From NCBI GenBank assembly GCA_021204605.1, contig JAJPZD010000180.1, positions 1 to 33,923 on the forward strand: a stretch of DNA of 33,923 nt, in the 5' to 3' direction. The notes below the pieces were generated by a model, which saw only the letters and a program-made list of their open reading frames with translations, did no database searches and had not been told where the DNA came from. Origin of the DNA: Prevotella sp. Its GTDB lineage: Bacteria > Bacteroidota > Bacteroidia > Bacteroidales > Bacteroidaceae. Shown in pieces: positions 10,882 to 29,069 of this stretch (within the stretch, counting starts at the first letter, position 1; the number at the start of each line of letters is the position of its first letter). The translations under genes were made by a program, and so were the position numbers.

Positions 10882-10916
10882 TTTCTTATTTCTTATTTTT
10901 TATTTCTTATTTTGTG
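10882..10916 (+). repeat. Heptanucleotide tandem repeat TTTCTTA x~4 abutting the ispH start
   Basis: TTTCTTA TTTCTTA TTTTTTA TTTCTTA TTTTGTG read directly; ends at the GTG start codon of ispH. Confidence 0.85.
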
Positions 10917-11774
10917 AAGGAAGTGAACATCGAGATTGACAACGGCAGCGGGTTTTGCTTTGGTGTAACGAGGGCAATACGCAAAGTAGAAGAAGAACTT
11001 GCGGTAAGCAAGACCTTGTATTGCCTCGGCGACATCGTACACAACGGTATGGAGTGCGAGCGTCTCCGCAACATGGGACTGATAACCATCAACCACGATG
11101 ATTTGGAAAAGTTGCACGACGTGAAAGTGTTGCTACGCGCTCATGGCGAGCCCCCGCTTACCTACGAGATAGCAGCACGCAACGGCATAGAGATAATCGA
11201 TGCCACCTGCCCTGTGGTTCTCCGTCTGCAACGACGTATAAAACAGAAATATATATCCAACAAAGATGCGCAGATAGTGATCTTCGGGAAACCAGGACAC
11301 GCCGAAGTGTTGGGACTTGTCGGACAGACAGGAGGCCACGCCATTGTGATAGCGGGAATTGACGATGCAATGACTCTTGACTTCACACACGACATCTTCC
11401 TTTACTCCCAAACAACAAAATCTCTCGATGAGTTTCACCGCATAATAGATTACATCTCTGCTCACATCGCCACTAACGCAACATTCCGCAGCTTTGATAC
11501 TATCTGCCGTCAGGTGGCAAACCGTATGCCTAACATCAGCTCCTTCGCCAAGCGGCATGACCTCATCCTCTTCGTTTGCGGACATAAAAGCAGCAACGGT
11601 AAAGTTCTCTTCGATGAGTGCAAGAGTGTCAACCTCAACAGTCATCTTATCGAAGGTCCCGACGAGATTGACCCCTCATGGCTCAACGGCATTGCAACAG
11701 TGGGTATCTGCGGAGCCACAAGCACACCGAAATGGCTTATGGAACAGTGCAGAGACAAATTGCTATCTGTTTAA
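10914..11774 (+). CDS. ispH: 4-hydroxy-3-methylbut-2-enyl diphosphate reductase
   Basis: GSGFCFGVTRAI, LGDIVHNGMECERL, LRAHGEPP, IIDATCPVVLRLQ, ICGATSTPKWLME; GTG start. Confidence 0.96.
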   Translation: MKEVNIEIDNGSGFCFGVTRAIRKVEEELAVSKTLYCLGDIVHNGMECERLRNMGLITINHDDLEKLHDVKVLLRAHGEPPLTYEIAARNGIEIIDATCPVVLRLQRRIKQKYISNKDAQIVIFGKPGHAEVLGLVGQTGGHAIVIAGIDDAMTLDFTHDIFLYSQTTKSLDEFHRIIDYISAHIATNATFRSFDTICRQVANRMPNISSFAKRHDLILFVCGHKSSNGKVLFDECKSVNLNSHLIEGPDEIDPSWLNGIATVGICGATSTPKWLMEQCRDKLLSV

Positions 11775-11819
11775 TAACGAGTACAAACGGCATTAGTAGA
11801 ATAAACGCAAGAGGAATGC

Positions 11820-11854
11820 TTTCTTATTTCTTCTTTCTTATTTTTTCTTTTGCG
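11820..11854 (+). repeat. Second degenerate heptanucleotide array (TTTCTTA-like)
   Basis: TTTCTTA TTTCTTC TTTCTTA TTTTTTC TTTTGCG, overlapping the 3' end of the UvrD-type ORF and nearly matching the array at 10882-10916. Confidence 0.75.
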
Positions 11855-13947
11855 ACCAACGGGAGCATTAGTCCACACGCTTCTCCATATCCTACCATAT
11901 ACACCAATGCCCTTGCGCGTGTTATCGCTACATAAAGCAATGAACGTCTGCTTGACAGGTATTCCTTTTTCTCCAAAGCATCCATAGTGAAGAACGGGTA
12001 TCCGTTGGTTTCTTTCGACGGTATGTTTCGCTCATTCACGCCCATCAGTATTATCACCCTGAATTCCAAGCCTTTCAGCGAGTGGAACGTACACAGCGAA
12101 ATGCCATCCCTTGAACCAACTGGACTATATCCTTTGATTTCCTTGAATGGAATATTCTCATGGTGTAGCCTTGACTTCAACTCCCTTGCCTGATTTGACA
12201 CTGGTGTCGCCACGCAAATATCCTTTAATGGAATTTCGCTTTCCTTGCAGCCGTTTATCCACTCAATAACTTGCTCCACTTCTTCCGTCACATTGTTCAC
12301 CATTGTATATACAGGTGCTTCACCTCCTCGTATCAATGATATATAACCTTTCATCGACTCAGATCCGCCATCCATATCATCGTATTTCTGACCTTTAACC
12401 ACACTCACTGCCACTCGCTTTATCGGCTCTGTGGTACGGTAATTCACTTTCAGCCTCTTACTCCTCACACCACGCACGTTAATTCCTGCTGCTCTGAAAT
12501 TTATCTTTCTTCCACTGTATATGCGCTGCATTGGGTCACCGGTCAAAAACAGGTCATTCTCTCCCTCTGCCACCAACGCACGCAGGAATTTCAATTCAGG
12601 ATTGGAGAAATCCTGAAACTCATCGGCAATGACATTGGTATATGGTCGCACGTTGTTTTCGTTTAGGTATTTCGTAACCTCATTGAAAAGTTCAAGTCTG
12701 TCAACTACTTTTCTGTCTTCTTTCAGTTTGACGTACTTCTCAACTAACCGCCACACCTCCATTCGTTGTTTTCTGCTCAGTGCTTTCGTCCTTCCCACAC
12801 GGGCTTGCATCAAATATTGCCTTGAATCGCTTATACCATAATATACTATCACGTCAATATACTCATCATAAAGGAATTTCTCGTCAAATTCGGTCACTTC
12901 CGTCTCCAACACTTCCCGCCAGAGTTTCAACGATTCTTCATCTCCTGAGTAGTCTAATATCTTGTATCTTTCTTTTATAAAGTAATTCCTTGCTACATCG
13001 AGCAATACTTGGTCGATATTGTTCAATGTATATCTCCTGATATTGATATCCATTTTCTTCAACAGGCTGCCTAAATTTTCTTTCAATGTCTTGGTATATG
13101 TGGTGAAAAGCACCTTTGAGTCCTTGTTACCGCATAGGTATTTCAGTCGGTGCATTGCGGCGACGGTCTTGCCAGTTCCTGCTCCGCCACTCACCTTCAT
13201 TGTCCCTTTATAATCGGTATCAACGAGTTTTCTTTGAGACGGATGCAAAAACAACTGCCAAGCCTCCATGTCTTGGTCAATAATTCTCTGCAACTCATCA
13301 TCATCGGTGAGTTCCACAAACCTGCGCTTGTTGTTGTCGCTCAATTGCTTGTCTTGGTTCTCCTTCGCCTTGCCTTCTTCTATTTCAGCTATTATCTCGT
13401 CTATATCCGCTCCGTCCATTAAGTTGAATAAATTCTCGTATGCGTCAGTAGGCAGATATTCCTCCATCTTGTCAAGACCATTCAATGTCTCTATCTTGCA
13501 GACTTTCGGTATCAGTTCTTCAGGCACGCCTATCTTCAGTAACTTTTCTGCCGGCACACCGTTATACTTCCAAGCCAACTTTTCCTCTGCCTTTTCCACA
13601 GGGACTGTCTCTGTGGTTTCTTCCACAGTAATTAACTGTATCGTATCTGTAATGTCATTCCAGATTATCTTTTTCCGTTCACCCCATTTATAAGCCTGCT
13701 CATGCGTACCGACATACACGAGATAATAACTGTCCTTATCCAAAACGCCTATTATAGCTCTGTAATTGTCATCTACTCTGGCAGTACGCAATGAATCATC
13801 CCTGAACGCTGCGATGGGTTCTATGTGTATGCCGTTGGATGTACTGTTCTCCCTCAGTTTCCTCTGGAAATCTATCACTTTTCTCTGTGCTCTCCTCGGA
13901 AGTGCCAACACTGCCTCATAAAATGTGTCTGACAAAAATATTCTCAT
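11824..13947 (-). CDS. RelE/ParE-like toxin domain fused to UvrD/Rep-type SF1 helicase (defence operon gene 4)
   Basis: N-term MRIFLSDTFYEAVLALPRRAQRKVIDF...RVDDNYRAIIGVLDKDSYYLVYVGTHEQAYKWGERK is RelE-superfamily-like; then SGGAGTGKTVAAMHR (Walker A), VIADEFQDF (motif II), LTGDPMQRIYSGR (III), CTFHSLKGLEFRVIIL (V), LLYVAITRARALVYM (VI). Confidence 0.9.
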   Translation of the reverse strand: MRIFLSDTFYEAVLALPRRAQRKVIDFQRKLRENSTSNGIHIEPIAAFRDDSLRTARVDDNYRAIIGVLDKDSYYLVYVGTHEQAYKWGERKKIIWNDITDTIQLITVEETTETVPVEKAEEKLAWKYNGVPAEKLLKIGVPEELIPKVCKIETLNGLDKMEEYLPTDAYENLFNLMDGADIDEIIAEIEEGKAKENQDKQLSDNNKRRFVELTDDDELQRIIDQDMEAWQLFLHPSQRKLVDTDYKGTMKVSGGAGTGKTVAAMHRLKYLCGNKDSKVLFTTYTKTLKENLGSLLKKMDINIRRYTLNNIDQVLLDVARNYFIKERYKILDYSGDEESLKLWREVLETEVTEFDEKFLYDEYIDVIVYYGISDSRQYLMQARVGRTKALSRKQRMEVWRLVEKYVKLKEDRKVVDRLELFNEVTKYLNENNVRPYTNVIADEFQDFSNPELKFLRALVAEGENDLFLTGDPMQRIYSGRKINFRAAGINVRGVRSKRLKVNYRTTEPIKRVAVSVVKGQKYDDMDGGSESMKGYISLIRGGEAPVYTMVNNVTEEVEQVIEWINGCKESEIPLKDICVATPVSNQARELKSRLHHENIPFKEIKGYSPVGSRDGISLCTFHSLKGLEFRVIILMGVNERNIPSKETNGYPFFTMDALEKKEYLSSRRSLLYVAITRARALVYMVGYGEACGLMLPLVAKEKIRKKK

Positions 13948-13948
13948 G

Positions 13949-16900
13949 TTATTTTCCTGTTATTTCGTTAATATTAAATTCTTCTGCTTTCATAGTCGCA
14001 AATCCATTAGCCTTGAATACGGCTTCTGAATCGTTGTCAAAAGGATTGATGGCAATATGATACTTATGTAATATCATGTCTGCCGATGCGATGACCTCTC
14101 CGTTGGCATCAGTATAATCACAATTACCTTCGTGGTCAAACTCTATATCGTTGTCAAGCAATGCATCCACTATATCCTCTAAACCCGGATATAACTCTTT
14201 TATTTCATCACGTGACATTTCTTGCTCTATATCCTCACTTGCGGTCTCCTGCCCTATCTTGTCAAAGAACTGCAATATGTTGTATCTCCTCCAAAATCCT
14301 ATCCATGCTTCCTTATCTGCTGTTTCTAATCCTTGTACGATATTAAAGTCATAGTGGATTGCCGGTTGCAGTGCTTTTGCCACTTCTTCATCTGTCGAAT
14401 CATCTGTCAACTTGCCGTATGCCGTTCCGTCAATTTCTAACTTTCCTGAATATAGTGTTGCGCCATACGTGATGATATCAGGATTATCTTCAATGGTGAT
14501 GAATGTGGTTTCTACAACATTGCCAAATTGTGGATTTTTCAGCAATTTCATTAGTCTCGTTACTGAATTATAACCCAAGGAATCTTCCTTGCCTGCATTA
14601 AACAACTGCAAATCTTCCCATGTCAATGTCCAAGTACACAACCTGTGTGATTTCGATGCTCTTATTGCTTCCCTCTTTTCCACATCTCCGTAAAATCGCA
14701 TATTCGGTGATTCTGCATGATAGGTATATCCGTCCAAATAAACCGACCACATCGGTATGGATTCTATATCTTCTATAACTTCATCGTTGATAGTTGCCGC
14801 CATGCAGATAATCTGGAAGTCGGCGATTGAATAGAGCCTCACTCCGTAGGCGTTTGTCAACGAGAACTGTGGTATTATGTGGTATTTAATATCTGTACCC
14901 TCGTCATCAACGATATGCAGTTCATACCGATATGAAGTTACGTCTGGCACTTTCTCAAACTCCCAGTTGTGTTGTTGTGCCACTGTCTTTAATACTGAAA
15001 CGAATTTCAGCTCCAATTCACTGTCTTCAGCAACTCCCGTTTGTGCTATCGTTCCCACAGAACCGGATATCGTCTCCCATGTCCCGGTATTTTCAATAAG
15101 TTTCTCAAACAGTTCATCTGCCAATTCCCTGCTGAACGATTCTCTCTTGTATTGATTGCCGTATGATAATATGCAATGATAGCAACCGTCTTTTCCCTCA
15201 TACTGGCACTCACATTCGTGTATCTGCTTATATGCGAACTCCAACAGTTTGGTGAATTCTTCCGTGTCATACAACTTTGAAAGATACCCTGTACCGCCCG
15301 GTATTATGTCATACATCACGAGATATTGGTCTTTCACGCCCGTCGCCCTGTTCATCTCTCTGTATGTGTCAATGCGGATATGTTCTGGCGAGGAATTATA
15401 ATATTGCTTCATCCCTATTCCGATTCCTGCCTTGAACATCTCTATCATCGCTCCTTCATCCATTATCGTTTTTGGCAACAATATCTTTATCGCCTCCGTC
15501 TGGATATGCCTGTACAGATATAACTTTTCAAAAACTCTTTCATCATCAGAAAATGATACCTTGCTGTGATTGCAGAACCTATAATGTTGGTCTTCTGTTT
15601 TTTTGATACTGCCTAACATCGGTGTTGACTTGCCGCAATATTTGCATGTCACAAAACCGTTTTCTGTCACGTTCCCATCTTCATCAACTTCGGTCCTCGA
15701 TCCACTCTGCATCTCCATGCCGTAGTTCACTTCGTAGAGTTCCATATTGTTGCAGAACTCAATACCGAAACCTGCATTTCTCATGGCGTAGGATGTTACC
15801 GCTCCATTGTGGTGGAAGATATAATGCCTCTTTACTATGTAGCTTTCTCTTGTCCTGTCCTCATCCTTGTCGTCAAATGCGGCTTCATTACTATGCATCA
15901 CACTCCTCGCATTCGTGAATTTCAGCACTTTATGGGTGTTTGCCGCCCATGACGAGTCTCCACACTTCGGACATTCGCTGTTTTCATATCCGTCCTCTCC
16001 CTTTAATGCTATGCAGTCGCATTTGCTGCAATAGCGCATCTCTGTCATGGCATCGTCATTCCAGTCAAAGGTTGACAGCCCGTCTATCTTCAACTTGTAC
16101 TTATGAGTATAAAAACTGTTCCCAGGCGCGAGTTCCTTGATTCCTTCAGATGCCGGACGTACCAGTTCAAATGTTTTAGGCTCTCCCCTGTTGCTGTCGT
16201 TGTCTTCTTTCGCTTTTGTTGCGTATATGCTCGATTGCAGTTTCACTCCTGTTTCAGGAAATGCGTAGTTTGGCAACAGTCCTGCGTTTGTCATATACTC
16301 GATGACGTTCTCCCTCATTATCTGCGCATACTGTTTCTTTGTGGATTTTATCAAGTCATTAATCTGTGCTATGGCAGGGTCATTGTCTGGCATTTTTTTC
16401 TTCTTGTTTTTATACTCGTTCAACTCCTCGCCAAGACTGATTATTTTCTTACTCAATGTCTCAAAGTCTCTTATGATATAATTGTAGAATGTGCCGTCAT
16501 CCAATGTCTCAAACAGGTGTTTCAAAGCAACTTGCGTCTTTTCCTCATACTGGTTGGAAAACGATGTTATTAAAGATACTTTGTTGCCCTTTATAAACGT
16601 AATTATCCTGTTGACAAAAAACTTATCTGAACTGAATATATCCCTGCTCGTCAGATTCAGGTCTGATACTCTGCTTGGCTCTACATTGTCCTTATCCTCA
16701 CTAATCCAAGTGTCTATGCAATAGGCGAGGAAATGTCTCCTCAATATGTCTTTCGCCTCCAAGAAACAGCCCGGTGTACTCACGTCTCCTTGCATCATCT
16801 CCTCTGGATAGGTATAGTAGTACATATCGTGTGGCTCACCTGAATGGACGTAATTCAATATAAGGGCGGAACCGCATTTGCGCCCTGCCCGCCCAACTCT

Positions 16901-19900
16901 CTGCAGGAAATTGCTCGGCTTAGGTGGTACGTCGGTATTGCTCATCACGTTAAGGTCACCTATGTCTATACCCATCTCCAACGTTGACGTGGCTGTCAGC
17001 ACGTTTATCGAGTTAGAATGTGGATGTTCCTTAAAGTCTTTCTCCAACTCTTCCCTTTCTTTCCTGTCCAACAGTCCCGTGTGCTCATGGGCTTGAACAC
17101 GTGGTGATACTTCCCTGTTATATACCGACTGATAATAGTTCAAGTCTGGTATTTCTTCTCTTGAATATATTCCTCTACACTTATAATCCAAGCATTTTGT
17201 TCCTTCCGCCAATTCATCTTCTACTGCTACGCATAATCTTGACTGACAATTAGAGCAATTTATATGCTTCACCTTACTGCTCACCCATATCTGCTCCGGA
17301 CATATCGCATAGTTGCCCCCTCCCTGCGCTTTCTTGTTCAACAGCCCTACTTCTGTCATCGTGTCAAACAACTGACAAATGAATTCATTGAACAGTCTCA
17401 CGTTATTAACGGTATATGGATCGTTAAAGGTATCAATATAATAATTGCTGTACCATGTCTGCTTATTCCTGATTGCAGCTATATCCAACATACTACTATT
17501 TCCACCTACATAATTTGTTCCTACCAATTTCGGAAATTGCATGCTTCCGCCAAGTGACTTATTAAGAAAATGTCTCCCATCTCTATGCCAATTTAAGTCC
17601 CATGAAGACATTTTTTCTTCTCTATATTTTTGGAAATATGGATGGTCAACCGCTCCGTGTCTCCTCATTCGTTGCAGTATTCCATACACAAAATGACAGA
17701 AATTTTCTTTTTGTTCTGCAACAATATTCATGTTGTTACTCATAAGCCAGTCATGCATATTCTCATAAACACTTTCTATCACTTCTTTTGAGAAGAATGT
17801 GGCTGATGAGCCTGTCTTTTCAAGTGTACGGCCCAATTGTGAACTTAATCCGAACTCGCTTACTATCTCCCAATCTACCCGCAAGTCAAATTCTGTCTTG
17901 AAGTTTGGCATAAAACCGTTGCCAAGCCTGTAATTGCGCCTTAAATCTATATGCTTTGCCAAGTCCGACGGCAAGAACCGGTTGTAATAATCTTCTTCTG
18001 ACAGTTGCTTATGCCAATATTCCTTGAACCCTTTTTGCAAATCCACGAGATTTATCGGCTCTTGTAACGTGTTTATATATTTCTGCATCGACTGGCGGAA
18101 CAGAAACCTGAATGTCCTCGCCTCATAATATCCCGCATGATGTGCGGCATCCTGCACGCTGTTTGTAAACACAAGTAGTTTCCTGTCCTTTGCTTCTGCT
18201 GCGTCAAAGTCACTCGCCAATACCTGACTGATTGCTACGCTTGACAAGGAAGATGTGCGGCCACCGATAATCGCAACCGTTCTGTCTCCATTACATTCAG
18301 GACAGTTATACTGGAATCTTTGATTGCCTCCGTCAACATTACTTGTCTTGCGGCAAATGCAAAGCCTTACCGTTCCTTGCTCTCCTCGATTTGCTACTTT
18401 CAAGTCTTTTACGTACGCATAATATTTGTCTTGAAAATCAACTGTATTGGTGACAAATTCATCTATCGGCTTGTGCTTTTCTGAATCTATGTTCAGATAC
18501 ACGGTGTATATATCGTGTGCCATAAATGCCTTGTTCACGACACTCACGTCTGTACACAGTTCTCCGCCTTCCAACTTCCTGCTAATCCATCCGCTCGCTC
18601 CGCAATCTCTACAGAAATACATCGGCAACGCCACTCTGTCCTCGTCTTTATTCAAACTGCCTCGCCATACGAACTCTGGTGTTGTCTGCACATATCGCAA
18701 TATGCCGCTTAACTCCCGCTGCCATAACTGTACTTGCAGATACAGCATCGGTATTGTCCTGCCATTGGGCAACTCTCTCTTTGCGTATGCTATAAGTGCC
18801 AACAGGTTTTCTATCGCTATGTCGCATATCTTATCTGAAGAATGTTGCCACAGACGATTGGATTTGTTGTTTTCCCTTAAAATATATCTTAGCTCTCTTT
18901 CCGTCTTTATTCCGCTCTCCAAAGCCTTCAACAGTTCTGATACAATGCTCATGGTGCGGAGCTTTTTCCCTGCTTCCACAGGACTGATATCGCTCTCTCC
19001 AAGCCATACCTTGCAAAGTCTTCGCATATAACTTTCCACCGTAAAGTCTCTGCTGAAATCACATTCCTTTAATACTTTCCCATCTGGCACACTATTGTCT
19101 TCCTTTTGTATATACTCGTCAACGCTTAATCTGTGCTCCTCTATTACATTTTCTTCTTTGAATGTCTCTCCGAAAATATTTGATGCATATTCGCAAAGGC
19201 GTGTCTTGTTATCCTCGCCTGTTCCTATCGTCGCTGATGTTCCTATCGGACAGAGTTCGCCTTTATTCAGACCGAGTTTCAGTTTCAAACGTCTTATCAG
19301 GTTTGCCACATCTGTTCCCTGCGCTCCGTCGTATGTATGCAACTCGTCCAACACTATAAATTTCAGGGCTTTCGTCTCACTGTCTATATTGCCTTTCCAC
19401 AACGGCATGAAACGTTGACGCATCAGTCCATAGTCCAACATCTTGAAATTTGTAAGCAAAATGTCTGGAATACTGTCTAATATGGCATCTCTGTTTTCTA
19501 TGATATGGTCTGCTCCCATATCTCTCGGAAAGTCTTTCGCGTCAATGCCTTCTCCTACAAACAGTCCTGCCGTAACTTTCCCCTTCAGCCGCTCGTCATT
19601 CCATATCACCTCCGCCAATCGTTTCGCCTGGTCAGTAGCAAGGGCGTTCATCGGGTACATTATTATCACTTTCACCCCTTGCTGCCGCTCATACCTGTTG
19701 CAGTGATAGCAATAGTCTAATATCGGATACATAAAGCACTCGGTCTTTCCTGATCCTGTTCCTGTTGTCAGCAATGTAGGCTTTGGTTGATGCCCGTCTT
19801 TCATCGTCAGTTGCTTGAAAGCATCCAACTGATGTTTGTATGGTGGAAATGTCGGTGCTATATCAAGTGGTATTTTCTTGCACTCCTCATCTGTCGCCGA

Positions 19901-20071
19901 CACAAACGGTGTCTTGAGGGAGATATACGGTCCTTTAAACAGCCCATCTTCCTCATCTTCTATAAAACGATAGAATGCATCATTCACTTCTCTCTCCTTG
20001 AACCGGAATGTTGCCTTTATATACTCTATCACCGACCGTCTTACTTCTTTCGCTTGCTGAAGTGGTAGCAT
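13949..20071 (-). CDS. Large SF2 DEAD/DEAH helicase with DUF1998-like Zn-binding C-terminus (DruE / MrfA / DrmA-DrmB-like; defence operon gene 3)
   Basis: LLTTGTGSGKTECFMYPILD, IMYPMNALATDQAKRLAE, VLDELHTYDGAQGTDVANLIRRLK, IGTSATIG, LTATSTLEMGIDIGDLNVMSN, QRVGRAGRKCGSALIL; C-terminal IIPGGTGYLSKLYD...CECQYEGKDGCYHCILSYGNQYKRE DUF1998 signature. Confidence 0.92.
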   Translation of the reverse strand: MLPLQQAKEVRRSVIEYIKATFRFKEREVNDAFYRFIEDEEDGLFKGPYISLKTPFVSATDEECKKIPLDIAPTFPPYKHQLDAFKQLTMKDGHQPKPTLLTTGTGSGKTECFMYPILDYCYHCNRYERQQGVKVIIMYPMNALATDQAKRLAEVIWNDERLKGKVTAGLFVGEGIDAKDFPRDMGADHIIENRDAILDSIPDILLTNFKMLDYGLMRQRFMPLWKGNIDSETKALKFIVLDELHTYDGAQGTDVANLIRRLKLKLGLNKGELCPIGTSATIGTGEDNKTRLCEYASNIFGETFKEENVIEEHRLSVDEYIQKEDNSVPDGKVLKECDFSRDFTVESYMRRLCKVWLGESDISPVEAGKKLRTMSIVSELLKALESGIKTERELRYILRENNKSNRLWQHSSDKICDIAIENLLALIAYAKRELPNGRTIPMLYLQVQLWQRELSGILRYVQTTPEFVWRGSLNKDEDRVALPMYFCRDCGASGWISRKLEGGELCTDVSVVNKAFMAHDIYTVYLNIDSEKHKPIDEFVTNTVDFQDKYYAYVKDLKVANRGEQGTVRLCICRKTSNVDGGNQRFQYNCPECNGDRTVAIIGGRTSSLSSVAISQVLASDFDAAEAKDRKLLVFTNSVQDAAHHAGYYEARTFRFLFRQSMQKYINTLQEPINLVDLQKGFKEYWHKQLSEEDYYNRFLPSDLAKHIDLRRNYRLGNGFMPNFKTEFDLRVDWEIVSEFGLSSQLGRTLEKTGSSATFFSKEVIESVYENMHDWLMSNNMNIVAEQKENFCHFVYGILQRMRRHGAVDHPYFQKYREEKMSSWDLNWHRDGRHFLNKSLGGSMQFPKLVGTNYVGGNSSMLDIAAIRNKQTWYSNYYIDTFNDPYTVNNVRLFNEFICQLFDTMTEVGLLNKKAQGGGNYAICPEQIWVSSKVKHINCSNCQSRLCVAVEDELAEGTKCLDYKCRGIYSREEIPDLNYYQSVYNREVSPRVQAHEHTGLLDRKEREELEKDFKEHPHSNSINVLTATSTLEMGIDIGDLNVMSNTDVPPKPSNFLQRVGRAGRKCGSALILNYVHSGEPHDMYYYTYPEEMMQGDVSTPGCFLEAKDILRRHFLAYCIDTWISEDKDNVEPSRVSDLNLTSRDIFSSDKFFVNRIITFIKGNKVSLITSFSNQYEEKTQVALKHLFETLDDGTFYNYIIRDFETLSKKIISLGEELNEYKNKKKKMPDNDPAIAQINDLIKSTKKQYAQIMRENVIEYMTNAGLLPNYAFPETGVKLQSSIYATKAKEDNDSNRGEPKTFELVRPASEGIKELAPGNSFYTHKYKLKIDGLSTFDWNDDAMTEMRYCSKCDCIALKGEDGYENSECPKCGDSSWAANTHKVLKFTNARSVMHSNEAAFDDKDEDRTRESYIVKRHYIFHHNGAVTSYAMRNAGFGIEFCNNMELYEVNYGMEMQSGSRTEVDEDGNVTENGFVTCKYCGKSTPMLGSIKKTEDQHYRFCNHSKVSFSDDERVFEKLYLYRHIQTEAIKILLPKTIMDEGAMIEMFKAGIGIGMKQYYNSSPEHIRIDTYREMNRATGVKDQYLVMYDIIPGGTGYLSKLYDTEEFTKLLEFAYKQIHECECQYEGKDGCYHCILSYGNQYKRESFSRELADELFEKLIENTGTWETISGSVGTIAQTGVAEDSELELKFVSVLKTVAQQHNWEFEKVPDVTSYRYELHIVDDEGTDIKYHIIPQFSLTNAYGVRLYSIADFQIICMAATINDEVIEDIESIPMWSVYLDGYTYHAESPNMRFYGDVEKREAIRASKSHRLCTWTLTWEDLQLFNAGKEDSLGYNSVTRLMKLLKNPQFGNVVETTFITIEDNPDIITYGATLYSGKLEIDGTAYGKLTDDSTDEEVAKALQPAIHYDFNIVQGLETADKEAWIGFWRRYNILQFFDKIGQETASEDIEQEMSRDEIKELYPGLEDIVDALLDNDIEFDHEGNCDYTDANGEVIASADMILHKYHIAINPFDNDSEAVFKANGFATMKAEEFNINEITGK

Positions 20072-20107
20072 ATCTTGACTATTTTATATAAACATTAATT
20101 CCCAAAT

Positions 20108-20132
20108 TTGAGGTGCAATTTTTGCACCTCAA
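20108..20132. other. Strong intra-operon hairpin between methyltransferase and helicase genes
   Basis: TTGAGGTGCAA-TTT-TTGCACCTCAA, 11-bp perfect stem, 3-nt loop, in the 89-bp gap between 20071 and 20161. Confidence 0.85.
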
Positions 20133-20160
20133 GATTTCATTCTCCTTTGACAATGAAACA

Positions 20161-23100
20161 TCACTCGTCTTTATATCGTTTCTCGAAGAATTCCCATGCA
20201 CGGCGATAATCGGCAATGCGGTCACAACGGGTGTAGGGGGCGTAATAGATTATATGTTTTCCGCCATAGAGTTCGTTTCTTTGGGGATCAACTATATTCT
20301 CGTAAGTGGTTGTTGCGCCTGAATATGTCATTTTATCATCACTCAAATCACCACGCATGGCTTCCCACTCTTGTCGTTTCAATCCCACACCAGTCATTCC
20401 TTTAGAACAAGTAAAGACAATATTCCCTTGAGCATCATACCAAGTGTCATTTTCGTTCTGCTGAAGGACTGGGAATTGAAAAGTAATGGACTCTATATCG
20501 TGTAAATTCAATCCTAACCCCATCGCTGAAATTACATCGATTTCTACTAATGCCATTCTTCTCTCAAAATAATTCCGTAATGGTGTAGAATGTTGCCATA
20601 TGGGAGTCAAAACGTTCCATGGCGAGAGACGGCTATCTTTTACACTCCATTCATCATGTATGAAAGCATCGTCCCAGGATTCTTCCCAAAGATTAGAATA
20701 GCGTCTTGTAATACAATTCAGTCTTAAAGTGCGAGAGAAAAGTCTCTGTTTAAATTTGTTATTGATACCAAGTGGAAAAGACTCTACTCTTATAGGATGA
20801 ATATCACTACATCCAATAGTTCTAATAAAGAAATCCAAAATTATTGAGGCGGCGAGACCAGCATATTCCACGATTAACGATTTATCTTGAAAAGTTGTGG
20901 ATGTAATAGTGCCAATATGCATACTCTCTGGCGGCAAGATTGCTGAGGTTAAAGTCCTTTCCCCAGAGCCTCCTCCCGTCATTCGGCGTACGCCAACTTT
21001 ATAATAATTTATCCACTTTTCATAAATCGGTTTACCTTGTTTGTCTTGTCCAATTTGAAACCCTTTAATTAGATTTTTATATTCATTCCTTTCAATCACG
21101 GGAACATAATTTGTTCTGGCAGAATAAATATCATCAATAAAAGTTAAATCGATATTATCATAATCACTATTTAAAACACATCTCCTACGTGGCGTTTTAT
21201 ATAAAGGATTCCCAACATTAATGTGTGGGCCGCTGAATATCATTTCATTGTTATTCCATTCAGGGAATGATGTTTTGCGTATAATTATACCATTATCAAC
21301 TGAACTAGTTTCTTCTAAGCCCCTGGTGATAATATTCTTAAAATCGCCCAAGTGATTATGAAATCCAGACAAAGTCTCAAGCACCTTCATTATTTCTGCA
21401 CTATGAATCCCAACTAATTTTGTGGACTCCCATTCATCAGAGTTTTCAAAAATCTTAGCAAGCGTGCTTAATTCCTTCTCAGTTATCCAAACGATTCTAT
21501 CCAGATGTGCAGCCGTGTTCCACTTGCCATTCTCCTTGATGCCACCACACACACCATGACCATCATGAACAAAACATGCATCAACTGTATTAGGATGGAA
21601 AAGATTACTGATTGAAGCGAAGCGCGGTGATGAACTTCGGTATGGCCCGAGAAGTTGATCACCATACACCGTATGGTGATGAACTTCGGCAAATAGCCGA
21701 AGTTCGTTTTGATACTGAAAATGGTATCTCAGACGTTTATAAAGTTCTTTTCTAAGAGGCTTTCCTTTTGGATCATCATAGATACTATCAGGAGTTAGCA
21801 AGCCTGTAAAGCCATTTTCGTTTATAAGATCAAAACAGTTAACCAATACACACTTATAAAGATTTGTCTGTTGTCCGACAAGTAATGGGTAGTTGCTGTA
21901 TGCATTAAGAAAAAAGCTGCTGCACTCATTTTCGATCTGTTCCGATTCATAGATGCTGCGAATGTTTTTATCCTTCATTATTTCAACCTGTATTGCACGC
22001 ACTTGAGGTGCGGTCATTCTGTGTATAATAACTTCTGGATAACGTTCACTCATCACAGCTTTATCATCAAACTGCAATTTTATCCATGGTGGATTTCCAC
22101 AGATAATATCAAAACCATCTCTAAGCCAAAATACATCGATAAAATCAAGCATAGGATGAAAGAAATGATAACGCTCTGCAAGTTTTTTAGCTATCCTAAA
22201 ACGTTCTGGTTCTTCATCTTCAAAAAGTGTAAGTTGCGATGTTTTTTGAACTAATATATCTTCCTTGCTTCGCTGAACAATATTTGCTTCTTCCTCTGTC
22301 ATTCGCTCTCCAAGAAAGTGAAGATTTAATTCTTGTTGCTTAGATTTAGATTTAATCGCTTTCCTTGTATTATTATCGAGTTCTTCATCTTTCACATCAA
22401 GCAGATTTTCAATTTCCTGCCAGAACTCATTTCGTGTCGGCAACATCAAAGCATCATCATATCCCCAAAACCACAACGAACACCAATAATCCATTACCAT
22501 ACGTAATTTGTAATAAGCATTATTACGTCCATTTCTTGTATCGCAAAGTTTTTGCTTCTCCTCATAATTTTCTATATGTTTTTCGTTTGGGAAAACATCA
22601 GGCTCTTTTAGATGAGGCCAAATATCCTTGCGGTTATTTGTAAGTCTTTCTATATTTACCTGCGCTTCAAACGCTTCACGCAATAATAAATCTATCTTTG
22701 ATGATATGCGTTGAAGTCTTTTAAAATCATACTCACCAATAGGTTGCAACCAATCTTTTTTAATATCGCGCATAATTTCAGCCTCATTCTTGTGTTCATT
22801 CCTCATTTCCCTAATCTCCAGTGCCGCAAGCATACCAGGATCGGGAAGCAGAAAATGATAGATATCATTTATATGGCGATTAACACTTTTACTATAAAAT
22901 CGCACTTTATGCGGTGCTTTCTCCCACCACTTATTTGCAATCAATTTATATCCTTCTTTCTTTGCAAGTACATCCTCCTTTGAATACACTTTCAGCCATG
23001 CTCCTACTACGGCATTTCCCACTGCAAGCCTATTGGCAAAGAAAGGTGTTTCCATATCCTTGTGTATCACGTTAAGCCACAATGACAGTTTTCCTAATTC

Positions 23101-25092
23101 TATTGCAGTCGGATTGAGGTCAACGCCATAAACATTATGCGTTGCGATATATGCCTTCACTTTTTGTAACTCATCACGATATTTGTCCGGACTTGGCTTC
23201 TTGTCAATATAGGTCATATATGCATCTACCAACTGGTTGATTACCTCATTCAAGAAGGCGGATGCGCCTACTGCAGGTTCAAGTATCTTCAAGTCAAGCA
23301 ATTCTGCCGGCTTGCGCTTGCCATCTCTCACCTCATCTACAAATGCTTTTATCGTATATTTCACCGTTGAGCGTGTAAGTACTTCCGGCGTGTAATAGCT
23401 GGCTGATTTCTGTCTGTCCCGTCCATTCAATCGGTAGATAAATGTCCCCTTTGGTATAATTATCACCTCTCCTGTTTCTTTATCACGAAGCACCTCAGTA
23501 TTAATATCAAAAGCCTCCATACGTGAATATGGTACTAAATACGTGCCGTTTTCAGGATGATTTGCCTCATGTACTTCGATATAGTCCTGTTCTGCATAAA
23601 AACCACGGTATGCCAAAAGTGACTCATACACCGAGCCCAGTTGATTAACACCAAGATTGGCGTAGGATATGCGCCCACAATAACGGTCGCTATGCGAAAG
23701 CGACAAAGCCCGTATTATTTCCTGCCACTTCACGTTGCGCACCTTTACTCCTTGTAAATGGTGTAATTTCTTGTCATTGAATATTGGCGAGTCTATCGGT
23801 CGCACATAGAATGATTTGTTTGGTGCGGTCGGTTCTGTATTTGCATTATAGCCTGACGAAAGTATATCAAACAATCGGTGTATGCTGTCATCAAAGAAAT
23901 ATCCGTTGCGGCTCTCATCACTTATCAACCGCTCTTGCTCAAGGTCACGCAATGCCTCAAAACTATAACCTCGCTTATATACCTCATCTCCCATTGGGAG
24001 TATTCCCAACTCCGGACGGCTCTCTGCGAAAAGTATAAACAGCAAGCGATAGACTATCGTCAGACAGTCATCTTTAACTTCTGCCTCGAATTTATCATCT
24101 GTCTCATCGTATGTAACACTACCATCTTTCTCTTTCTTTGCAACCCCGAATGGTTTGTTGGCAACATTCCGCATATAATACAATGCTTCGTTTGCCAAAG
24201 TCTCCACAGCAAGCACAACGCCCTCTTTCAGGTCTTTAGTTACCTCGTATGCGTTCTTGTAACTGTCCTCGATAAGCGTGTTCATCAACACCGTCTGCCC
24301 ATCGGCTGAAAGTGATTCCTTGCCTACCAACAGTTGGAACAGTGCATAGTGGTTGCGTGATGAGCGAACCTGTCCCTCTGTAAACAGTTCATCAAGTGAG
24401 AATTGCAGATATGAACCTCGTGACCATTTCTCTTGCTCAAACAGAAACACCTCATTTCCTGCCAACATCAATATGTATTGTGGGCGGCGTTCCTGCGGCA
24501 TCAGGAATAGCTGTGTTATCGCCTTGTTGATTATTGAGGGTGAGAACTTGTATTTTTCCTTGTCTAAATATTTTTCTGGAATGACGTATTTCCATTGCCC
24601 GGCATAGTAACGCTGTTCATTCGTATTCCGCTCTGGCTCACTGTCATATTGCTGTTCGAAAAGTCCGGGCGGCACTGTCTCGTTAACAGTTATCTGGTTC
24701 TGCATCTCCATAATAAGCATACTCACTTTGTCGCCACTGCGGAGTATATGCCTAACAGGGATTATTTCTGTAATATCGCCTTTGTCATTGCTTACGTATG
24801 GCTCTTGATATGCGTTGTCTGTGTCATAGCCAAGCACTTTCAACAGCTCTGTGTGCCACTTATGACTCCTCTCAATGGCATCCTGTGTTCTGGGGTGGGC
24901 ATTGACTATGAAATTCTTGTAATCATCAAACTTAGTGCGTAACGGTCCAAATTTCTGATTGAGCGCGGCAATCTCCTCAACGCTTTTTCCAGCACTTTTC
25001 CTCACTTTTTCAGCGAAATCCTCCGTGAAATATCCCGAAGGGAAATAATCGCCTACATTCTGTATAAATCTGTATGTTATGTTGTCTGCCAT
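20161..25092 (-). CDS. Large N6-adenine DNA methyltransferase (Eco57I / PglX / DrmMI-like; defence operon gene 2)
   Basis: Motif I-like LDLKILEPAVGASAFLNEVINQLV, NVYGVDLNPTAIELGKLSLWLNVIH, catalytic ICGNPPWIKLQF, C-terminal TRD-like region. Listed ORF begins at a TTG (25101); ATG at 25092 (MADNITYRF) is likely. Confidence 0.92.
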   Translation of the reverse strand: MADNITYRFIQNVGDYFPSGYFTEDFAEKVRKSAGKSVEEIAALNQKFGPLRTKFDDYKNFIVNAHPRTQDAIERSHKWHTELLKVLGYDTDNAYQEPYVSNDKGDITEIIPVRHILRSGDKVSMLIMEMQNQITVNETVPPGLFEQQYDSEPERNTNEQRYYAGQWKYVIPEKYLDKEKYKFSPSIINKAITQLFLMPQERRPQYILMLAGNEVFLFEQEKWSRGSYLQFSLDELFTEGQVRSSRNHYALFQLLVGKESLSADGQTVLMNTLIEDSYKNAYEVTKDLKEGVVLAVETLANEALYYMRNVANKPFGVAKKEKDGSVTYDETDDKFEAEVKDDCLTIVYRLLFILFAESRPELGILPMGDEVYKRGYSFEALRDLEQERLISDESRNGYFFDDSIHRLFDILSSGYNANTEPTAPNKSFYVRPIDSPIFNDKKLHHLQGVKVRNVKWQEIIRALSLSHSDRYCGRISYANLGVNQLGSVYESLLAYRGFYAEQDYIEVHEANHPENGTYLVPYSRMEAFDINTEVLRDKETGEVIIIPKGTFIYRLNGRDRQKSASYYTPEVLTRSTVKYTIKAFVDEVRDGKRKPAELLDLKILEPAVGASAFLNEVINQLVDAYMTYIDKKPSPDKYRDELQKVKAYIATHNVYGVDLNPTAIELGKLSLWLNVIHKDMETPFFANRLAVGNAVVGAWLKVYSKEDVLAKKEGYKLIANKWWEKAPHKVRFYSKSVNRHINDIYHFLLPDPGMLAALEIREMRNEHKNEAEIMRDIKKDWLQPIGEYDFKRLQRISSKIDLLLREAFEAQVNIERLTNNRKDIWPHLKEPDVFPNEKHIENYEEKQKLCDTRNGRNNAYYKLRMVMDYWCSLWFWGYDDALMLPTRNEFWQEIENLLDVKDEELDNNTRKAIKSKSKQQELNLHFLGERMTEEEANIVQRSKEDILVQKTSQLTLFEDEEPERFRIAKKLAERYHFFHPMLDFIDVFWLRDGFDIICGNPPWIKLQFDDKAVMSERYPEVIIHRMTAPQVRAIQVEIMKDKNIRSIYESEQIENECSSFFLNAYSNYPLLVGQQTNLYKCVLVNCFDLINENGFTGLLTPDSIYDDPKGKPLRKELYKRLRYHFQYQNELRLFAEVHHHTVYGDQLLGPYRSSSPRFASISNLFHPNTVDACFVHDGHGVCGGIKENGKWNTAAHLDRIVWITEKELSTLAKIFENSDEWESTKLVGIHSAEIMKVLETLSGFHNHLGDFKNIITRGLEETSSVDNGIIIRKTSFPEWNNNEMIFSGPHINVGNPLYKTPRRRCVLNSDYDNIDLTFIDDIYSARTNYVPVIERNEYKNLIKGFQIGQDKQGKPIYEKWINYYKVGVRRMTGGGSGERTLTSAILPPESMHIGTITSTTFQDKSLIVEYAGLAASIILDFFIRTIGCSDIHPIRVESFPLGINNKFKQRLFSRTLRLNCITRRYSNLWEESWDDAFIHDEWSVKDSRLSPWNVLTPIWQHSTPLRNYFERRMALVEIDVISAMGLGLNLHDIESITFQFPVLQQNENDTWYDAQGNIVFTCSKGMTGVGLKRQEWEAMRGDLSDDKMTYSGATTTYENIVDPQRNELYGGKHIIYYAPYTRCDRIADYRRAWEFFEKRYKDE

Positions 25093-25097
25093 GTCTA

Positions 25098-27938
25098 TCA
25101 AAGGTTATGGAATACTGCCAATAGTCGCATATATGGATCTGCTTGGTCAAGCGTGAACAAGTCCTTATAAAATTGACTCGATTGGTCAGTAATCTTCTTT
25201 ATTTCTACTTTTTCTTTATCTATATAACTCTGTCGGTATAATGTTACGTTTTCGGCTTTGTCAAAAAACTTATTCGCATCTCCTGCCCACTTTAGAAGTT
25301 TTTCCTCGTATTTTTTCAGTTGCTTATCCATTTTATTCGAAACGTGATTCTGTTCATCATACATATAATCAACCGTTCCTATCTCTATCGCAAATTTCAA
25401 ATTTTTCATCAAAATTGATATATCCTCTTGTGATGTTGTTCCTTTCATAAACACATTCTGCCCTATAATGCCGTATTTCAGCGCAAAATCATGGAATGAT
25501 ACTGGTCTTTCTTTCATTGTGCCTTCATTATCCAATGCCACAACAAAGAACTTGCTTACAAGGCTTTGCCCTAAACCGTTGCAGCAACTGCCATAAAACA
25601 GATAATAGCTTATGCCCTTTGGCAACTGTGTGCCCCTAACCACAAATGCCTGTGTCTTTGAGTTCGAGGCGGTAAACTTGGTTTGCAGATATTGTATTAT
25701 CGGGTGTAGGTCATAGAGTGGCAAAATCCTGCTCCATTCCCCATCCTTGCTTTTTCGGGATTCCGCAATTGACCATGCCAACATCTCTTTATTCGTGGTT
25801 AACTTGAAACGGTTGTCTCTCGGAATGCCCTCTCGTGGTATGGCTTTCACCACCTCACTGAACTCATCACAATTTCTTATCTCAACGTATTGCGGGTTGG
25901 CATCATCGTGTATTATAATGTCTCCTCGCTTTACACTTCCTATTTCTTCCAAATGTCTGAAAAGTTCCCTGTAATAAGCCATGTCATCGGCATATAGTGA
26001 GAATGTCTCCTCAAATATTTCATTAGACTGTCCTTCTATTTTCGGTGTTGTCGTAACAATGGCATCGGCCCGCCTGAACCCTGCTCGTCTGCGGCGCTGA
26101 GCGGCTTGCGGCGTTAGGAAATTCTCATCTCCTTTCCTCAACGCTTTCTTCGTCTCATCTTCCTCGCTACGCACATTATATAATTCCATCACGCTCATGG
26201 CATCTCCAAGCGTCTTGTGGACTTCCTCCTCCTTCTGCCTTAATTTGTCGATAATAGTGAAATCGGAACGCAATTCTTTGTTATTGCTATTTGCTACAAG
26301 GTAGTAGATTATCGGCGTTTTCTGTTGTCCGTATCTGTCGATTCGCCCATTGCGCTGTTCGAGAGTGATAAGGCTCCATGGTATGTCGTAATTGAACATT
26401 ATATGACAGAAATAGTGCAAGTTCACGCCTTGTGAGCCACTGTCAGAAGATATGAACACAAGTATCTCACTGTCTTCTTTCGCAAAGTCATTCACCATTT
26501 CTTCTTGCTCGGTATCACTCAGTGAACCATCAAAACGTACTACCTGATTATCTGTCAGTCGGAACTCCTCGCAAATCCGTTCTTGCAGATATTTCATCGT
26601 GGCTATCCGCTCTGTGAACACTACAAGCCGCTCTTTCGGATTTGCTCTCCATATCTCTGTCAGTTTTGCCTTGAATGCGTCATATCGACTGTCTTTCTTG
26701 GTTTCCACAAGGCTTCGGACTTTCTCTGTTAATTCCGCCAAACTTTCACTTTTATCTGTCTTCATTCTCTCCTCAAGCGACCTTAGGGCTGCTATCGGAG
26801 ACGACAAAAAGCCCTTGAATACTGTCAAAGAGAACAGTACATCATCGCTTTCGTCACTTTCGTCATTTTTAATATCCTTGTTATCTTTTTTATTGGATAT
26901 GTGGAATTTTGCGTGCTGCTTGCTAAGTATTTCCTCTTCATCTTGCGTAATCACAACATCAATACTTTTCACTTTTCTTTCTTGAAACTGACTGCGGATT
27001 TTCGCATCTGCTATTTCGTTCTTGAATCTCCGCACATAGTATGGTGCTATATCTTCTTTGGTATATTCGCCGTTTCGTGGTATCGAGATGGGCTCCAACA
27101 TCCGCATGAGATTGGCGAATGATTCTGCCGAACCGTTATGGGGTGTCGCAGATGTGAGAATCATCGAATCGCACCGCCCTGCCAAAAACTGTGCAAGGTC
27201 GCCCCTCAGACTGTTCTCATTGGCTACCTTGTGGCATTCGTCTATCACTATTATATCCCAATGGGTCTTTTCAAGCCAGTTGCGGAACCGACCGTTGTTC
27301 TTTAACGTATCTATCGAGATTATCGTCTTGTCGTAAAAGTCAAAAGGATTTTTGCCAAGCGGCAATTCGCTCTGTATCCTCGCCACTCCCATACTGTCAA
27401 GACGTACAAGGGGAATGGCGAACCTGTTCCATATCTCCTCCTGGAATTGTGCGAGTATGCTTTTCAAGGCGCATACCAATATCCGCCTCCCTCGCCCCCT
27501 GCGTATCATCTCTGCAAGGAATATTCCTACTTCTATCGTCTTTCCCAATCCTACTCCATCGGCTATCAGCAGTCGGGGGCGTGGCAGGTCAAGGGCTTTC
27601 AACGTGGGTGTCATCTGATATTCCGCCACATCGAATGCTCCATGCTGTGCTATGGTTATCTTATGTGAGAAATAGGCATTGCTCCGCAATGCGGTCTCTA
27701 TATGCAACCTTGTCTTTTGCCAACGGGGATTATCATCACTCACAAGCTCGGTGTTGATAGGATTTACAATCTCGATATTTTTGTCTAATCCTGTGTCAAA
27801 GATAAAACTCTTGTTCTTTACCAACTCGCTTATGCCAGTAACATACAATATATGGTCGCTGTTGTTGGAAACTACACCAGTGATCAGGAAATCTTCTCCC
27901 CTGACCGTCACTCGTTGACCAGCAGAATAGTTTATCAT
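25098..27938 (-). CDS. SNF2/DEAH-family helicase (DISARM DrmD-like; defence operon gene 1)
   Basis: [105 protein letters not shown]. Confidence 0.93.
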
Positions 27939-28053
27939 TGCGTTTTAGATTTTTATAGGTTTGGCAGTTAGTAGTTTATCCATACTTTTTCATGTCTCAG
28001 ATTTTTAATTTTACAAAAATACAGAATTTTGTTGACAATCTATAATTATTTAC

Positions 28054-28069
28054 AGAAAGTTAACTTTCT
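28054..28069. promoter_or_regulatory. 16-bp perfect palindrome upstream of the defence operon (possible operator)
   Basis: AGAAAGTTAACTTTCT, a perfect dyad ~116 bp upstream of the first ATG of the operon. Confidence 0.4.
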
Positions 28070-28113
28070 ATACAAAAATTCCCATCTAAATCACCTGTTC
28101 TTGTTTTTGCCAA

Positions 28114-28310
28114 TGCGTCTGCCAAAATATATTCAAAAATTCCTCAAATAGCGACAAACAAATGTAGGGACATAATTTATTATGTCCGCTTGTCAACAAA
28201 GAGAAAATTTTACAATTAATTCCTTACAAATATTCGCTATCTGCGGACATAATGAATTATGTCCCTACACATGGATAAACGAGGTTAAAATTGCTTGCGT
28301 CTGCCAAAAT
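28114..28310. repeat. 15-bp direct repeats TGCGTCTGCCAAAAT flanking the inverted-repeat element
   Basis: Perfect copies at 28114-28128 and 28296-28310, with degraded similarity continuing (TCAAAA-TTCCT / TCAAAAGTCCT). Confidence 0.85.
28163..28269. repeat. Composite inverted repeat: 27-bp arms, 53-bp spacer
   Basis: TGTAGGGACATAATTTATTATGTCCGC (28163-28189) versus GCGGACATAATGAATTATGTCCCTACA (28243-28269): reverse complements with one mismatch; each arm itself contains GGACATAA...TTATGTCC. Confidence 0.9.
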
Positions 28311-28376
28311 CAATCAAAAGTCCTTATCACAGATACTTGTAAAGACGATTCACAAATCAGATAGCAAAAAAGCAGA

Positions 28377-29069
28377 TTAACTATTTATAGCCTGATAATA
28401 TTTTTCCAATAGCCACGCTTTTTGTCCGGCTATTGTCATGTTGCTGTTGTCAAGCTCTATTGCGTCTTCTGCCTTGCGAAGAGGGGATGCCTCTCGGTGG
28501 GAATCAATATAGTCGCGCTCCTGCACGTTTTTCAATATGTCGTCGTAGTCTGCCTCCATACCTTTGCTTTTAAGCTCGTCATAACGCCTTTGGGCACGGA
28601 CTTCTGCGGAAGCGGTAACAAAAATTTTCAGTTCCGCATCAGGGAACACCACCGTTCCGATGTCACGACCATCCATCACTATACCCTTCTCATCACCCAT
28701 TCGCTGCTGCTGCGCCACAAGTGCTTCCCTTACAAAAGGCAATGTGGCTATCGGACTGACATGAGCTGACACCTCCATGCTCCGTATCTCCTTCTCAACC
28801 AATTCACCATTGAGATATGTATCAGGGCGGCCAGCCTCCGCATTGAACTTAAATGAAATATTTATTTCGCCCATCCTTTCTCTAAGCTCACCCGTTTTTA
28901 TACTGCCATCTGCATTGAAAAGACCGTTGCGAAGGGCAAAAAGAGTCACCGAGCGGTACATCGCTCCCGTATCAACATACACATACCCTACCTCACGGGC
29001 AAGATCCTTCGCCATCGTGCTCTTGCCGCACGACGAAAACCCGTCTATAGCTATGGTGATTTTTTTCAT
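28377..29069 (-). CDS. cmk: (d)CMP kinase
   Basis: [71 protein letters not shown]. Confidence 0.96.

Follow-up and report, generated by a model that had tools for sequence, protein, structure and literature searches.

The window analysed here is a 33,923-nt stretch of DNA from a Prevotella sp. (assembly GCA_021204605.1, contig JAJPZD010000180.1, positions 1 to 33,923). It contains a four-gene operon of a Prevotella-like bacterium. This is almost certainly an ARMADA Type II defence locus, with ArmD encoded by the last open reading frame (ORF). ARMADA Type II is a published four-gene phage-defence system in which the fusion of a RelE-like domain to a GajB-like UvrD helicase has already been named (Bell et al., 2025; PMC12458937). 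System and fusion are both already published, and this locus adds a member. The new part of this analysis is a small addition: the conservation of a putative active site in the RelE-like domain of ArmD, and the recurrence of such proteins in several other defence settings. The favoured reading, with a probability of about 0.5, is that the RelE/YoeB-like domain of ArmD would be a helicase-gated nuclease whose local target is phage nucleic acid. The following parts of ArmD were delineated:

11824..13947, minus strand: ArmD, 707 residues, ATG start, no internal stops; fusion of a RelE-like domain and a UvrD/GajB-like superfamily 1 (SF1) helicase
13663..13947, minus strand: RelE-superfamily-like N-terminal domain, residues 1-95 (profile searches and alignments)
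13348..13575, minus strand: helical linker mini-domain, about residues 125-200, conserved, with the pattern LxxLGVP...LPxxA.E.L..L.xG
11878..13257, minus strand: UvrD-type SF1 motor core, about residues 231-690 (Pfam and homologue alignment)

In ArmD, a helical linker joins the RelE-superfamily-like domain to a complete UvrD/GajB-like SF1 core. The full SF1 helicase set described in an earlier prediction from the sequence alone (hereafter the original prediction) was recovered over residues 231-690 as PF00580 (residues 235-480, 6.9e-23) and PF13361 (8.5e-23). The PADLOC models closest to the motor were NERD+UvrD and GajB. Walker A K260 and Walker B D442 of the window ArmD corresponded to K266 and D454 of the Escherichia coli ArmD. 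The linker was modelled with a predicted local distance difference test (pLDDT) score of about 70-90 across residues 130-200. In the phage records scanned for ArmD, matches were confined to the helicase part.

The four co-directional genes between 27938 and 11824 corresponded to ArmA-ArmB-ArmC-ArmD, with ArmD last. The three genes ahead of ArmD were:

25098..27938, minus strand: ArmA, 946 residues, SNF2/RapA-like, DrmD/BrxHII-like helicase, first gene
20161..25101, minus strand: ArmB, 1646 residues, adenine-type DNA methyltransferase, type IIG/DrmMI-like, NPPW at residue 1003
13949..20071, minus strand: ArmC, 2040 residues, YprA/DruE-like SF2 helicase with an MZB domain

ArmA matched the models for DrmD (4.8e-94) and BrxH (6.7e-59), ArmC matched DruE3 (1.5e-107) and MZB (1.3e-10), and ArmB was, as in ARMADA II, a PglX-like/YeeA-related methyltransferase with NPPW. 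A C-terminal Vsr-type nuclease is predicted for ArmC in the ARMADA paper (PMC12458937). In the window ArmC, Vsr/PD-(D/E)xK-like motifs (ADFQI, YLDGYTYH and DVEKR) were recognized by eye within residues 1640-2040, where Pfam gave no nuclease. The genes were tightly spaced, with a 4-bp overlap between ArmA and ArmB, 89 bp between ArmB and ArmC, and 1 bp between ArmC and ArmD.

A co-linear homologue (L022) shared 46, 50, 44 and 46% identity with the window ArmA, ArmB, ArmC and ArmD, respectively. Other co-linear homologues were found at L023-L025 and L029 and in Pseudanabaena (L038), Haematobacter (L042) and Tsukamurella (L044). On an E. coli plasmid (L037), ArmB to ArmD were co-linear with the window up to the end of the record. 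The Walker residues of the E. coli plasmid copy (ArmD K266/D454 and ArmC K110/D234) are the residues mutated in the published work (PMC12458937). Because this homologue carries exactly those residues, the window can be tied to the experimentally tested system. The E. coli ARMADA locus was matched in 530 of 5,426 complete E. coli genomes. In a tree made of ArmD alone the window grouped with other Bacteroidota ARMADA II copies; its ArmD shared 46% identity with the closest homologue found beyond Prevotellaceae and about 32% with the E. coli ArmD. The phage-defence context proposed in the original prediction was correct, though the system had already been named with a published ArmD.

Gene order varied among ARMADA II loci, being C-D-A-B in Cylindrospermopsis (L045:11432-28105) and B-C-D-A on a Bacteroidales contig (L033:3-11346). 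In the Tsukamurella plasmid locus (L044:17935-21854), ArmD was directly followed by a second UvrD gene, and a helicase/DUF1998 gene pair lay upstream.

The RelE-like domain was detected by profile. As a single sequence, residues 1-110 of the window ArmD gave no Pfam match and no RelE-type PDB match even at E = 10. A profile was then built from 26 ArmDs (that of the window and 25 further full-length proteins collected from genomes of Bacteroidota and from plasmids), a sampling that is mainly of Bacteroidota and plasmids. Nine of the 26 members matched the HigB-like toxin family PF05015 (best 3e-6) and seven matched ParE_like PF24732 (best 6.5e-4). PDB matches of the profile were mostly RelE-type toxins, each of them weak (YoeB 0.048, RelE3 0.084), and hhalign to E. 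coli YoeB gave 38%. The tie to the RelE/ParE (BECR) superfamily is statistically significant by profile, not for the window sequence alone, and at this level the call of a RelE-superfamily domain over residues ~1-95 was borne out. AlphaFold2 models had low confidence, with a pLDDT of 43 for the N-terminal domain alone and of about 45 over residues 1-95 when one homologue covered the domain, and Foldseek gave no match. The order of helices and strands in the low-confidence model of residues 1-95 was compatible with the b-a-a-b-b-b-a order of RelE (PMC11980606).

Conservation was counted over the 26 aligned ArmDs and, with five further homologues kept out of the profile, over 31 sequences. The putative active-site positions were:

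13819..13821, minus strand: E43, aligned with the YoeB general base E46; E in 18/26, H in 6/26, K in 2/26
13777..13779, minus strand: R57, 31/31; strand arginine ahead of the hairpin, near the RelE K54/RNase Sa2 R67 position (PMC2807027)
13759..13761, minus strand: R63, 31/31; aligned with YoeB R65/RelE R61
13702..13704, minus strand: H82, 31/31; matches the C-terminal catalytic His of YoeB (H83, general acid) in the alignment, at the RelE R81 position
13690..13692, minus strand: Y86, RelE Y87-like; Y in 23/26, otherwise M or N

Within residues 1-95, R57, R63 and H82 were the only invariant columns in the 26 aligned sequences, and all three were retained in the five additional homologues. F9, V79, A85 and W88 were near-invariant and position 83 was D or E in 24 of 26 sequences, while identity across homologues fell to about 25-35% over most of the domain. 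The chance that three random invariant columns would all fall in the four-residue catalytic set is about 3e-5, a post-hoc figure computed on an alignment and illustrative only. The E43 and R63 equivalences came from the profile alignment and that of H82 from the PDB profile alignment; the E. coli ArmD equivalents are E48, R62, R68, H88 and Y92. E46 is the general base and H83 the general acid of YoeB (PMC7878887, PMC6529426), the catalytic residues of RelE are R61, R81 and Y87 (PMC2807027), and the general base of YafQ is a His (PMC6529426). At the general-base position, 24 of 26 ArmDs carried either the E found in YoeB or the H found in YafQ. The R/R/H/Y pattern on which the original prediction relied thus held in the alignment. 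Because R57, R63 and H82, together with E43 and Y86, align with YoeB/RelE catalytic residues, the domain looks catalytically competent, with an apparently complete active site.

Searches with the ArmD N-domain profile also found stand-alone Bacteroidota proteins of ~90 residues (E about 1e-10 to 5e-14), and hhalign of the profile against them gave 98.8% (E 5e-17). Those scanned lay above the PF24732 ParE_like gathering score (44.7 versus 24.4 bits), and the stand-alone relatives retained the R-x5-R ... H pattern. The upstream ORFs of these relatives had 62-67 residues. In all six relatives checked, this ORF (64-67 residues) overlapped or abutted the ParE_like gene, had a common sequence pattern (LPxxEQNAIADLL..ELAWQ...EYxxGKTKPM) and matched no Pfam family:

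L055:1471-1937, L056:1289-1761, L057:1474-1943, L058:1474-1946, L062:1304-1770, L064:1298-1764: pairs of a stand-alone ParE_like gene and its upstream ORF

These look like toxin-antitoxin pairs, and the upstream ORFs are probably an undescribed antitoxin type. No antitoxin-candidate ORF was found within the ARMADA operon or its flanks, and a profile of the putative antitoxins had no match in the six reading frames of the window. The adjacent cognate antitoxin gene that defines a type II toxin-antitoxin system was thus seen in neither operon nor window, as the original prediction had said of a separate antitoxin. The linker was considered as an antitoxin in cis and rejected, since hhalign (0.3%) revealed no similarity between it and the antitoxin candidates paired with the stand-alone relatives.

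In the E. coli ARMADA II system, all four genes and the Walker A motif of ArmD are required for defence (PMC12458937). By homology, the four window proteins would likewise act jointly against phage. Cells carrying the system were propidium-iodide negative, intact and metabolically unperturbed at high multiplicity of infection, and the authors concluded that defence is direct and non-abortive (PMC12458937); this result comes from a single E. coli system and a single phage (HK022) and is no proof for the Prevotella system. The puzzle is that a non-abortive, apparently DNA-targeting system keeps an invariant RelE-type active site with no antitoxin. Under the favoured reading of a helicase-gated nuclease, the ArmB methyltransferase would probably mark self DNA, ArmA and ArmC would act on unmarked DNA, the Vsr-like nuclease tail of ArmC would cut, and the UvrD-type motor of ArmD would be recruited to, or loaded on, invading, unmodified DNA. 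Instead of an antitoxin, the motor and the complex would keep the RelE/YoeB-like nuclease under control in cis. This nuclease would cut locally (phage transcripts, R-loop RNA, or single strands opened by helicases) and would not be freed as a cell-killing toxin. ArmD is proposed to cut as well because its YoeB-type site is conserved, and single DNA strands are allowed as its target because a YoeB toxin can cleave RNA and DNA, as AtYoeB does (PMC7878887).

Several points weigh against a gated nuclease. The predicted DNA nuclease already present in ArmC means that a second nuclease is not strictly required. The equivalence of residues to YoeB/RelE rests on individually weak profile alignments, and the RelE-type fold of residues 1-95, drawn from sequence profiles and low-confidence models, is putative. 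A group of Bacteroidota ArmDs (L022, L033, L036, L049, L050 and L052) have a Met at the Y86-equivalent position, with R57, R63 and H82 kept. The main text of the ARMADA paper reports no RelE-site mutant (PMC12458937), and no helicase activity was seen in one study of GajB, the nearest named relative of the ArmD motor (PMC10681800). The domain might instead lack catalytic activity and serve as an adaptor, binding nucleic acid or ribosomes and either placing the UvrD motor in position or touching ArmC, with all cutting left to the ArmC nuclease, which is predicted to be active (PMC12458937). An idle domain would need no antitoxin, the loss of Y86 in some members and the E/H/K variation at the general-base position would be in keeping with it, and RNA binding alone could conserve two arginines. 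Such a dead binding module is possible but rather unlikely, because the positions that correspond to the YoeB/RelE active site show strict conservation: R57, R63 and H82 are the sole invariant columns in 26 sequences, are kept in five more, and are common to stand-alone toxins in antitoxin-like pairs.

Besides a nucleic-acid-binding module, the original prediction had offered an abortive arm: on detecting phage DNA, the helicase would license the domain to act as a ribosome-dependent toxin of the RelE type and so halt translation. The RelE/YoeB-like active site and the toxin relatives would fit this, helicases that restrain nucleases until infection have a precedent in Hachiman (PMC12278908), and RelE/Colicin-D-like domains occur in CoCoNuT helicases (PMC11090510). 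The intact, non-abortive state published for ARMADA II cells (PMC12458937) leaves this arm unsupported, and we consider it improbable. It is very improbable that the domain is a ParE-like inhibitor of gyrase or topoisomerase: ParE_like is the name of the Pfam family that best fits the stand-alone relatives, but such names do not tell RelE functions apart from those of ParE, and the catalytic residues conserved in ArmD are missing from ParE inhibitors (PMC11980606).

RelE-UvrD proteins were also found in other defence settings. At four loci (L030:1706-9722, L031:1583-9909, L040:9034-17094 and L047:1357-10602) the ArmD-like gene lay downstream of a type III-like methyltransferase gene and was accompanied by a restriction gene (BPTD_3080, where annotated), an arrangement that suggests a three-part restriction system. 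An ArmD-like gene stood beside brxL in a BREX-like setting (L039) and with an Hhe-like helicase (L043). At L026:4203-18441 and L034:158-14905 it ended YprA-first operons with the ARMADA Type I order (YprA, SNF2, DrmMI-like methyltransferase). ArmD may, tentatively, represent a portable 'motor-gated toxin' family, in which an antitoxin-free RelE/YoeB nuclease fixed to a UvrD motor would have been recruited as a subunit into various DNA self/non-self systems (ARMADA II, YprA-first ARMADA-like, type III-like restriction-modification, BREX-like and Hhe-like). There it would supplement DNA restriction by degrading phage transcripts or opened DNA strands locally, with no cell killing. If the RelE-like domain is active, several defence systems would share a toxin whose control lies with a helicase in cis and not with an antitoxin.

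The window operon was flanked by ispH (10914-11774) and cmk (29069-28377). Because these two genes are directly adjacent in several relatives (e.g., G1013, G1019 and G002), the operon is read as an insertion between them; the interval (11774-28377) held no integrase gene. A general defence hotspot between ispH and cmk was considered and rejected, the relatives checked having peptidase, alpha-2-macroglobulin or housekeeping genes there. Upstream of the operon, at 28163-28269, lay an inverted repeat, TGTAGGGACATAAT..ATTATGTCC. The palindrome GGACATAATNNATTATGTCC occurred in 13 copies in the genome (0 for the reversed control) and is probably a small dispersed palindromic element.

Compared with known systems, ArmA, ArmB and ArmC are homologous to DrmD, DrmMI and DruE/DrmA-type proteins of DISARM and Druantia. 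In place of the drmA/drmB genes of DISARM class 1 the operon has one fused YprA-MZB protein, and it has no drmC (PLD) gene. To our knowledge, no RelE-UvrD subunit appears in published descriptions of DISARM or Druantia. Gabija GajB is among the closest named UvrD-type motors (PADLOC), but it is without a RelE domain and its partner is the GajA nuclease; no GajA-type (OLD-family nuclease) gene was found among the operon proteins with Pfam and PADLOC. With YoeB/RelE/HigB/ParE-like type II toxins (BECR fold; PF24732 nearest) the ArmD domain shares R-x5-R ... H, the usual general-base E and the helix/strand order of the low-confidence model, whereas it is fused to a 600-residue motor, is without an antitoxin and has extra C-terminal strands and W88. 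CoCoNuT CnuH likewise carries a RelE-type fold (the RelE/Colicin D-like RTL domain) on a defence helicase, but there the RTL domain has an OB fold on one side and the helicase on the other, in a McrBC-type system predicted to target RNA (PMC11090510). The likeness to ArmD of ARMADA Type II (PMC12458937) covers the four proteins, their order, the RelE-like and GajB-like UvrD fusion, and the Walker residues.
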